Of a stretch of 54,647 bases of DNA, positions 1 to 3,000 are shown piece by piece. Where the stretch lies: contig CANBVJ010000018.1 of NCBI GenBank assembly GCA_947372865.1, positions 1-54,647 on the forward strand, in the 5' to 3' direction. The notes under the pieces were generated by a model. That model saw nothing but the letters and a program-made list of their open reading frames with translations. It searched no databases and was not told the origin of the DNA. Within the stretch, counting starts at the first letter, position 1, and the number at the start of each line of letters is the position of its first letter. This DNA is from Comamonadaceae bacterium (GTDB lineage Bacteria > Pseudomonadota > Gammaproteobacteria > Burkholderiales > Burkholderiaceae_C). The translations under genes were made by a program, and so were the position numbers.

Positions 1-3000
1 ATGGAGTCGTCCGGCAGGCCCTCGGGGTGCACCTTGGTCACTGCGCCCGAGAGCATGGCGCCCACCGAGCGGTTGACGTTGCGCGCCACTTCCATGAACT
101 GCACACGTTCACCTTTGTCTATGGCAGCGCGGCTCTTGGCGATCAGCACGTTGTCCAGGGCTTTTTCCAGACCGTGTTCCTGCTCCTCAACCTGAAAGCG
201 TGGCACGTCAGCGGGCACCTGGGGCTGGGCGAACAGGCGGCTGAAATCCAGACCGCTGGCTTTCCAGTGTTCAATGCCCTTGCGCATGTCGAGCAGGTCG
301 GCGCGGCCAATCAGGTCGTCAAACTTGCGGATGCCGAGCTGGGCCATGATGTGCCGCACTTCTTCGGCGATGAAGAAGAAGTAATTGACCACGTGCTCGG
401 GCTTGCCCGAGAACTTCTTGCGCAACGTTGGGTCTTGCGTGGCCACGCCCACCGGACAGGTGTTGAGGTGGCATTTGCGCATCATGATGCAGCCTTCCAC
501 CACCAGCGGTGCGGTGGCAAAGCCAAATTCATCGGCCCCCAAGAGCGCGCCAATGGCCACGTCGCGGCCGGTCTTCATTTGGCCGTCGGCCTGCACGCGG
601 ATGCGGCTGCGCAGGCGGTTCAGCACCAAGGTTTGCTGGGTTTCGGCCAGGCCGATTTCCCAGGGGCTGCCGCAATGCTTGATGGACGACCAGGGCGACG
701 CGCCCGTGCCGCCGTCGTGCCCGGCGATGACCACGTGGTCGGCCTTGCACTTGGCCACACCGGCGGCAATCGTGCCCACGCCGATCTCAGACACCAGCTT
801 GACGCTGATGCCCGAATGCGGCGCCACGTTTTTCAGGTCATGGATGAGCTGCGCCAGATCCTCGATGGAGTAAATATCGTGGTGCGGCGGAGGCGAAATC
901 AGGCCCACGCCCGGCACCGAGTGGCGCAGGCGACCGATGTAGTCTGACACCTTGCTGCCGGGCAGCTGTCCGCCCTCGCCGGGCTTGGCGCCTTGCGCCA
1001 TCTTGATCTGGATCTGGTCGGCGCTGCTCAGGTATTCGGCGGTAACACCAAAACGGCCCGAGGCGACTTGCTTGATCTTGCTGCGCATGGAGTCGCCCGC
1101 GTTGAGCGCGTAATCGACCTCGAAAATCTCTTTGCCCAACAGGTCCGACATGGTCTGGCCTTGCTGGATCGGGATGCCTTTGAGTTCGTTGCGGTAGCGC
1201 AGCGGGTCTTCGCCGCCTTCGCCGGTGTTGCTTTTGCCGCCGATGCGGTTCATGGCAATGGCCAGCGTGGCGTGGGCCTCGGTGGAAATCGAACCCAGCG
1301 ACATGGCGCCGGTGGCAAAACGCTTGACGATTTCTTTGGCCGGCTCGACCTCGTCCACCGAAATGGCCTTGGCCGGGTCAATCTTGAACTCGAACAGGCC
1401 GCGCAAGGTCAGGTGGCGACGGCTCTGGTCGTTGATGAGTTCGGCGTATTCCTTGTAGGTGTTCCAGTTGTTGGCGCGCGTGCTGTGCTGCAGTTTGGCA
1501 ATCGCATCCGGCGTCCACATGTGCTCTTCGCCGCGGGCGCGCCAGGCGTATTCGCCACCAGCGTCCAGCGCGTTGGCCAGCACCGGGTCGCTGCCAAAAG
1601 CGGCCTTGTGGGTGCGGATGGCTTCTTCGGCGATCTCAAAGACGCCGATGCCCTCGACCCGGCTGGGCGTGCCGGTGAAGTACTTGGAAACGGTCTCGCT
1701 GGACAGGCCAATGGCCTCAAACAGCTGCGCGCCGCAATAGCTCATGTAGGTGCTCACGCCCATCTTGGACATGATCTTCGACAGGCCCTTGCCCACGGCT
1801 TTGACGTAGTTGTAAATCGCCTTGTCCGCGCTCAGGGCGCCGGGCAAGCCGTCGCTCATGGCGGTCAGGGTTTCCATCGCCAAGTAGGGGTGAACGGCCT
1901 CCGCGCCGTAACCGGCGAGCACCGCAAAGTGGTGCACTTCGCGCGCGGTGCCGGTCTCGACCACCAGGCCCGCCGTGGTACGCAAGCCGCCCAACACCAG
2001 ATGCTGGTGAATGGCGGACAAGGCCAGCAGCGCCGGAATGGCCACTTGCGTGGCGTTCATGGCGCGGTCGCTGATGATCAGGATGTTGTTGCCGCTCTTG
2101 ATCGCGTCCACCGCTTCGGCGCACAGCGAGGCCAATTTGGCTTCCACACCGTCGTGGCCCCAGGCCAGCGGGTAGGTGATGTCCAGCGTGTAGCTGCGGA
2201 ATTTGCCGTTGGTGTGGCGCTCAATGTTGCGCAGCTTGGCCATGTCGGCAAAGTTGAGCACGGGCTGCGCCACTTCCAGACGCATGGGCGGGTTGACCTG
2301 GTTGATGTCAAGCAGGTTGGGCTTGGGGCCGACAAAGGACACCAGGCTCATGACGATGGCCTCGCGGATCGGGTCGATCGGCGGGTTGGTCACCTGGGCG
2401 AACAACTGCTTGAAGTAGTTGTACAGCGGCTTATTTTTGTCGGACAACACGGCCAGCGGGCTGTCGTTGCCCATGGAGCCCAAGGCCTCTTCGCCATTAG
2501 CGGCCATGGGAGCGATCAGGAACTTGATGTCTTCTTGGGTGAAGCCAAAGGCCTGCTGACGGTCGAGTAATGTGGCCCCCACGCTCGCCACTTCGTGTGC
2601 TTCGCTGCCCCCCGAGGGGGCCTTCGCGCCTTGGGACGGCCCGGCGGCGCTCACCACGTCACTCGTCACGTCATCGAGCTTGATACGCAGGTTCTCGATC
2701 CACTGCTTGTAGGGCTTGCTGTTGGCCAGGCCCGATTTGAGCTCTTCGTCGTCAATCATGCGGCCCTGTTCCAGGTCGATCAGGAACATCTTGCCGGGCT
2801 GCAGCCGCCATTTGCGCACAATTTTGTTTTCGGGCACCGGCAGCACGCCGGATTCCGAGCCCATGATCACCAGGTCGTCGTCGGTGATGCAGTAGCGCGA
2901 GGGGCGCAGGCCGTTGCGGTCCAGCGTGGCGCCAATCTGGCGGCCGTCGGTGAACACGATCGACGCCGGGCCATCCCAGGGCTCGAGCATGGCGGCGTGG

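Follow-up and report, generated by a model that had tools for sequence, protein, structure and literature searches.

The window, by which we mean the whole stretch of 54,647 nt that was analysed, carries two strong copies of a GC-rich repeat, both lying within genes. One copy has a 79-nt core at 2575..2653 on the minus strand, inside gltB, a stop-to-stop open frame at 3..4109 on the same strand which runs past the edge of the window and whose portion in locus L001 matches the Pfam families GATase_2, Glu_syn_central and part of Glu_synthase. The second copy, likewise with a core of 79 nt, is found at 48613..48691 on the plus strand within murD (stop-to-stop open frame 47625..49319, plus strand), which was identified by Pfam Mur_ligase_M, Mur_ligase_C and MurD-like_N and by solved MurD structures. 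Both cores were placed by BLAST and exact location, and on translation both are read in frame B0, where a frame label gives the strand and the phase relative to the near-invariant second hairpin of the repeat. The two copies are 88.5 % identical over 78 aligned nt (BLAST, E 2.8e-24) and agree at 67 of 79 positions without gaps; the next-best BLAST match to the repeat within the window covers only 29 nt (E 0.004). An earlier note on this DNA had described an element at 2575..2649, 89 % identical to one in murD and sharing its orientation and frame. The element is present there, its conserved core extending to 79 nt, and the observation in gltB and murD is confirmed. Directly upstream of gltB, at 4226-4918 on the minus strand, lies a gene for a Y1_Tnp (RAYT-like) transposase.

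In the gltB open frame, GATase_2 ends at residue 470 (47-470) and the central domain begins at 517 (517-803); the insert occupies residues 485-512. Pfam domains, orthologue alignment and the solved glutamate synthase structure 7mfm, in which the stretch aligned to the insert site is short, thus place it in the linker after the glutaminase domain. A gltB match was obtained in 57 of 61 genomes searched. On examination of 30 orthologue loci, 28 were found to be without the insert, only the genome under study and G062 being filled; an insert here is not common to all GltB orthologues. The orthologues vary in linker length at this site: the filled stretch of 1560 nt is 45-51 nt longer than in short-linker orthologues (1515 and 1509 nt) and 12 nt longer than in long-linker ones (1548 nt). 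Because the repeat occupies an already variable linker, the net gain differs from the repeat length, and the earlier figure of about 25 residues added to GltB does not describe the net change. For murD, matches were found in 30 of 31 genomes searched, with a single match (E 1e-20) in the genome under study. Amongst 29 aligned loci (L196 excluded), the insert occurs at the same place in three (G000, G018 and G006), and the close relatives G011 and G024 are empty, giving a net gain of 72 nt. The murD insert, residues 329-356, falls inside a stretch (279-366) that does not align to the solved enzyme 7sy9.

The core can be folded into three short hairpins. In the gltB copy, with coordinates counted from the core and all on the minus strand, the 5' arm of hairpin 1 (core positions 1-8) lies at 2646..2653 and its 3' arm (positions 24-31) at 2623..2630, hairpin 2, the near-invariant GCCCCCTCGGGGGGC (positions 33-47), at 2607..2621, and hairpin 3, which has a bulged A (positions 54-67), at 2587..2600. 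In a covariation set of 40 of the 98 distinct 79-nt cores, two-sided changes were seen at 8/8 pairs of helix 1, at 4/5 pairs of helix 3 and at none of helix 2, whose pairs hardly vary and for which covariation is neutral. Paired cells amounted to 93.4 % compared with 77.9 % after shuffling, and the covariation score was 0.427 against 0.147 for shuffled and at most 0.092 for slid versions, figures that describe a structure read from the same sequence family rather than an independent prediction. Hairpins 1 and 3 are thus kept by compensatory change. At stem positions 2-3/29-30, a tandem G.A/A.G combination occurs in 28 of the 98 cores, where 11.2 would be expected by shuffling, which suggests a real non-canonical step; in the gltB copy the two inner pairs of hairpin 1 form such a tandem G.A step. 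The description of the element as palindromic therefore holds for the three hairpins and their covariation across copies, but not for the window copy taken alone, which folds no better than shuffled sequence, also as single-stranded DNA (z 0.23 and 0.06). No Rfam match was found at E <= 1 in window positions 2400-2800, nor at the gathering score in 20 element loci, and insertion into known RNA genes was rejected as an account of the element on the latter result.

The genome under study (3.0 Mb, 84 contigs) contains 26 repeat matches, 24 of them at E <= 0.0013. With at most about 22 candidates scored per genome, matches were obtained in 22 of 41 genomes, all in one genus, g1, which we take to be Rhodoferax (22/25), with 0/16 from other families. 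Four sets of copies were assembled: 125 copies from Rhodoferax genomes (S1), 100 copies in 80 listed loci (S2), 53 copies from order-wide loci (S3) and 55 new copies in 40 unlisted loci (S4), where S2 and S4 favour consensus-like copies because they derive from one exact-pattern scan of named contigs, among the matches listed. Truncated copies and copies whose ends were missed by the pattern were left out of all counts. Coding potential on either side of each copy was scored, the copy itself omitted, with a codon model trained on the window, which gives a coding density of 88-90 %. The 333 unique copies divide into 183 that are intergenic, 106 that lie within genes, 12 that sit at apparent gene-gene junctions and 32 that were dropped for less than 250 nt of flank, leaving 301 classified; the in-gene class requires strong coding on both sides, and broken genes could hide amongst the copies called intergenic. 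In Rhodoferax, 40 of 115 copies fall in called coding sequence, as compared with 201 of 223 control positions 700 nt away. The 12 commonest core lengths span 71-86 nt, with 144 of the 333 copies at 79 nt, and mean G+C is 78.2 %. Hosts named among the matches listed include Rhodoferax, Polaromonas, Variovorax, Hydrogenophaga and others, Bordetella not being among those names, and 6 of 72,556 plasmid records have a repeat match. Two copies, L235 and L251, are on contigs labelled Desulfovibrionaceae (WRJY01000326.1 and WRJY01000215.1), outside Burkholderiales, and may represent transfer or mis-binned contigs.

In the genome under study, Pfam identifies the hosts of in-gene copies as gltB, murD, a DUF2126 protein, leucyl-tRNA synthetase, a PutA-like proline dehydrogenase/aldehyde dehydrogenase protein, a DEAD-box helicase, a Mur ligase, a RecJ-like protein and PEP carboxylase. 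In a tenth gene, GATase/NAD_synthase (GuaA-like), the frame is open through the copy, yet the classifier scored it as not in-gene. Relatives carry copies in further genes, among them those for threonine synthase, a MacB-type ABC protein, EPSP synthase/cytidylate kinase, NAD-dependent DNA ligase, a class I tRNA synthetase, FAD synthetase/riboflavin kinase, a UvrA-like protein, rRNA adenine dimethylase, an FGGY kinase and an AMP nucleosidase-like protein. For several of the in-gene copies the site is a variable loop, a domain linker or a C-terminus. The 12 copies that are flanked by coding sequence on both sides but have a closed frame all appear to lie where two genes meet (by Pfam for L035 and L123, and as judged from sequence for the others), and no clearly broken gene was recognised amongst them on this basis. 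Six of them (L035, L032, L123, L054, L291 and L327, of which L054 and L291 are near-identical) extend the upstream protein in B0 or A0, as in the C-terminal tail on a PALP-family protein that precedes a tryptophan synthase alpha chain. A publicly annotated Fic family protein, WP_075587959.1 (L426:1261-2493, NZ_CP019241.1, a Rhodoferax antarcticus plasmid), has a repeat-encoded stretch in mid-protein, so that database proteins contain repeat-derived stretches unmarked.

Within genes the repeat is read almost exclusively in two of its six frames. Amongst the 106 in-gene copies, all open throughout, B0 is used by 69, A0 by 32, B2 by 3 and B1 by 2, with A1 and A2 not used at all. When copies are merged into events by host-gene family, strand and frame, 59 events in 52 families remain, distributed as 35 B0, 20 A0, 2 B1 and 2 B2. 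Since the in-gene call itself demands an open frame, openness in the 183 intergenic copies was used as the null; there, B0 is open in 159, B1 in 169, B2 in 117, A0 in 176, A1 in 134 and A2 in 171, that is, five frames in 73-96 % of copies and the sixth in 64 %. Against the 0.362 expected on this null, B0 and A0 together account for 101/106 copies (P 2.8e-38) and 55/59 events (P 4.1e-20), and the preference recurs in every set (S1 32/35, S2 37/38, S3 17/17, S4 15/16); it is weaker, 29/35 in S1 (Rhodoferax), if the frame is read at the left hairpin instead. Peptides of the two frames are rich in Ala, Gly, Ser, Thr and Pro, and their Arg+Cys+Trp content is the lowest of the six (0.09 and 0.11, compared with 0.18-0.29 in the others). 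The proposal that in-gene copies have been selected for tolerable coding is well supported by this frame-filtered appearance, and the suggested count by orientation and frame has given frames that are not random, Rhodoferax copies that are not solely intergenic and no clearly broken gene amongst the 12 candidates. A fixed orientation, on the other hand, has to be given up, the second frame being on the opposite strand in 32 of the 106 copies, and as orientation is not fixed, the agreement between the gltB and murD copies says little when taken alone.

Empty sites were recovered for 7 of the 12 copies tried in the genome under study. The net insertions in genes are all multiples of three (L011 +81 in one comparison, L018 +81 in 7/7, L013 +84 in one), and those at intergenic sites are +90 in 7/8 and +87 in one for L009, +88 in 7/8 and +89 in one for L010, +88 in 3/3 for L019, and +80 and +78 for L007. 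No consistent target-site duplication was found in the flank scan or the empty sites, L009 having a direct CATCTAG repeat and L010 and L019 none. We also considered that the variable 8-nt arms of the stem might be copied by the element from the target flank, and rejected this, both arms being absent from the empty L009, L010 and L019 sites; the arms therefore belong to the inserted DNA and their pairing reflects covariation internal to the element. In 75 intergenic Rhodoferax copies, taken in repeat orientation, the 20 nt to the left are G-rich and the 12 nt to the right tend towards CATATT-like and pyrimidine-rich sequence, a weak composition signal. On the right side, some 6 nt past the core may still belong to the element. 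Three gene families, an alpha/beta hydrolase (L028, L055), a MeaB/mutase (L087 and L122, L040) and an FAD-linked oxidase (L119, L121), carry the repeat at one and the same site but in opposite orientations in different genomes. One loop of the RecJ-like gene is filled in L016 (Rhodoferax), L239 (Polaromonas) and L288 (a Pseudomonadota MAG). Head-to-tail arrays make up 39 of 259 locus-strand groups, with spacers of 1-11 nt and a period of 84 in 28 of 57 pairs, and in-frame tandem arrays were seen in L386, L389 and L228. In L386 (G306:C28), six units follow one another head to tail every 84 bp at 2008-2508, all in one open frame of 1188 aa and repeating TEPPPGRPKAASAPSGGSEPREAGSVGA, and 4/6 of these units scored in-gene.

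We consider it probable that these observations reflect a disseminated, structured repeat whose copies in genes survive only where they are in frame, in tolerant places and in a benign frame. The repeat would be of non-coding origin, most probably a Beta-proteobacterial repeat element (BRE), and would also persist inside genes, as is observed in Rhodoferax and other genera of its family. The in-gene copies would then be the survivors of a filter that leaves the gene open and the core in B0 or A0, in line with the frames and openness recorded above, and the frame bias would arise from purging by selection. Translation of a copy would give the host enzyme some 26 extra residues, predicted from the sequence to be flexible, which it tolerates, and head-to-tail duplication, most often with an 84-bp period as in the arrays, could lengthen the insert in frame. 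All repeat peptides referred to here are in silico translations.

Amongst the alternatives, the two-frame rule may be one of landing rather than survival, if the insertion machinery prefers one codon phase or target motif. The left-edge codon phase, which is 0 in 60 of the 69 core-B0 copies, and the weak composition signal in the flanks would fit such a bias, but the right-edge phase varies (42, 16 and 11 of 69) while the core frame stays constant, and the frames used happen to be the two lowest in Arg+Cys+Trp; we regard this explanation as unlikely. It could also be that the encoded stretch functions in its host proteins and that the frame is kept for function, as the recurrence of the same peptide in unrelated enzymes and the reuse of the same sites across genera might indicate. 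No signature of selection on the peptide was seen in codon positions when diversity at third versus first and second positions was compared between in-gene copies and 61 intergenic copies: relative third-position diversity is not higher in genes, at 0.73 vs 0.79 for B0 (n=37, P 0.90) and 0.80 vs 0.79 for A0 (n=18, P 0.49). Moreover, the two strands encode unrelated peptides and orthologues mostly lack the insert. A useful peptide is accordingly very unlikely in our view, and the same peptide which the earlier note had emphasised looks like a by-product.

The insert might, alternatively, never reach the protein, being skipped by translational bypass or removed by RNA processing; bypassed palindromes are reported in yeast mitochondria in the published text (PMC6649704), and the present element is structured. 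An open frame, a length divisible by three and a preferred frame are nonetheless all seen, none of which would be needed if the copy were skipped, and we find this scarcely credible. A further proposal, compatible with the filter that we favour, concerns how the repeat moves, namely by the RAYT-type (Y1_Tnp) transposase beside gltB. The repeat is a hairpin element, and the transposase gene found in the window has matches in 54 of 61 Rhodoferax genomes. Against it, the flanks of 30 transposase loci examined contain no convincing copy (the only match has E 0.31), G018 (100 % complete; 22 scored copies) and G011 (71 % complete; 9 copies) have the repeat without a transposase match, and G002, G005 and G016 carry the transposase gene with no repeat copy. 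With flanks and genome distribution both against it, the RAYT transposase is unsupported as mobiliser and we give it very little probability. In 49 genomes the transposase match is on the gltB contig, within about 3 kb, and being kept at one place suggests a host role. Its flanks (4100-5000) are T/A-rich and have related motifs, CAATTAATTGAATTCATTGGGGTTAAT on one side and AATTGGAATCTGACCCCAATTAAAT on the other on the gene strand, which resemble an inverted pair and seem to go with the transposase, not with the repeat.

The entry of the repeat into genes differs between lineages. Across the order, with two candidates scored per genome so that copy numbers are lower bounds, matches were found in 34 of 399 genomes and 26 of 159 genera; in family f4, which we take to be probably Alcaligenaceae, 41 of 121 genomes have a match. 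In f4, 0 of 38 copies (28 loci) were placed in genes by the classifier, although some could have been missed because the codon model covers f4 less well (79 % coding vs 88 %), and 1 copy lies in a called coding segment as compared with 62 of 75 control positions; in Rhodoferax, 35 of 115 copies are in genes. Copies being only intergenic, which the earlier note had raised as counting against its view, is not what is seen in Rhodoferax, but in f4 none of the 38 was placed in a gene. Within S3, family f1 has 15 of 29 copies in genes, a count that includes tandem copies (15 in 8 loci), and other families have 2 of 23 (Fisher P 1.6e-7 with the 38 f4 copies added); S1 compared with the non-f1 families gives P 9.5e-6. 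The f4 frames are open too, in 30-35 of 37 copies per frame, and since these copies are as open but 0 of 38 were placed in genes, openness alone does not explain location. Nor does composition: Arg+Cys+Trp of the best open frame is 0.082 in Rhodoferax intergenic copies vs 0.105 in f4, and 0.103 vs 0.122, a difference that is too small to explain the contrast alone. Many of the f4 loci (L431-L458) have a TTTTTGCC...GGCAAAAA or GCCCCGCC...GGCGGGGC stem in hairpin 1, that is, few recurring types as against the varied stems of Rhodoferax.

Tentatively, it is possible, and on balance somewhat doubtful, that the Comamonadaceae repeat has evolved to do no harm in translation whichever strand is read, with a spacing that holds a single low-Arg frame on each strand in phase over its whole length and so opened gene space to it, and that the f4 relatives, with the same hairpins, stay out. 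The absence of f4 copies from genes (0/38 vs 35/115) and the slightly lower Arg+Cys+Trp in Rhodoferax speak for this reading, which is weakened by the small size of the composition difference and by the openness of the f4 frames. If true, it would be a case of selfish DNA adapted to translation in both directions. Having two families with the same repeat and different entry into genes makes it testable what lets selfish DNA into genes, and as filled and empty orthologues are plentiful, the amount of unselected peptide that an enzyme can accept, and the places where it does so, become measurable. Annotators should take stretches resembling AGPPQGxxAPSGGS or APTLxxxxxxLPPEGA as repeat-derived.

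Comparison with known systems helps to place the repeat. REP elements are mobilised by RAYTs. Like them, the present repeat is a short multicopy hairpin element in a genome with a Y1_Tnp gene, but it is larger than REPs, given as 20-40 bp in the text available from PMC3733652, and no copy lies beside the transposase in 30 loci. MITEs of the ERIC type are described, in the passages concerned, as small non-autonomous repeats with open frames that are sometimes fused in frame to genes (Delihas 2007, PMC2229807); unlike them, the repeat shows no identified terminal inverted repeats and no consistent target-site duplication.

The closest match is the BRE, as described in parts of Hot et al. 2011 (PMC3110155): about 75-91 bp, with many copies, mostly intergenic and some entirely inside coding sequences, reported from Rhodoferax, Polaromonas, other Comamonadaceae and Bordetella, and forming head-to-tail arrays with no or few nt between units. 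Our repeat agrees in length (core of 71-86 nt, net insertion of 87-90 at three intergenic sites and 78-80 at a fourth), in location (183 intergenic, 106 in genes and 12 at junctions of 301) and in arrays with spacers of 1-11 nt. It differs in mean G+C, 78.2 % here and 75.8 % in the 38 f4 copies, as against 69.0 % (range 63.7-78.9 %) for the Bordetella copies in that account (PMC3110155), the ranges overlapping, and in the six plasmid records that match, the same account giving chromosomal copies only. As a possible bridge to the Bordetella loci of Hot et al., a lexA-linked copy was looked for around three lexA genes in f4 genomes; just one of these had a match nearby, at E 0.16, and three other f4 repeat loci have unrelated genes as neighbours. 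The repeat is thus probably the BRE, compared by description, and the identity is not firm because of the difference in G+C. It can hardly be called undescribed, since the 2011 paper, as far as its relevant passages go, most likely reports it, including the copies entirely within coding sequences. The relevant section of PMC3110155 is without an analysis of frame or orientation, and none was recognised in the literature searched, most subscription journals being outside its scope; as far as this literature goes, both the use of two frames on two strands and the difference between lineages appear to be new.

Protein-coding palindromes are best known from Rickettsia, intracellular bacteria with small genomes. 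In review passages (PMC10969869, PMC2229807, PMC3767692), the Rickettsia palindromic elements (RPE) appear as repeats of about 100-150 bp inserted in frame into housekeeping genes which seem to have kept their function; they are described as coding for a conserved peptide and as filling the same sites in orthologues, and one is present in an active guanylate kinase. The present repeat differs in that each strand encodes a peptide of its own, unrelated to the other (69 and 32 of 106), instead of one conserved peptide, and in its 79-nt core, net length of at most 90, three short hairpins, high G+C and free-living Burkholderiales hosts. Its in-gene behaviour is alike, as the earlier note had suggested, with in-frame insertion and the frame kept open through all 106 in-gene copies, and by this analogy, which is one of behaviour rather than membership, it appears to work like the Rickettsia elements. 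It would represent a Rickettsia-like habit in free-living bacteria, with hosts including murD, leucyl-tRNA synthetase and NAD-dependent DNA ligase, and with a sharp rule of two of six frames.
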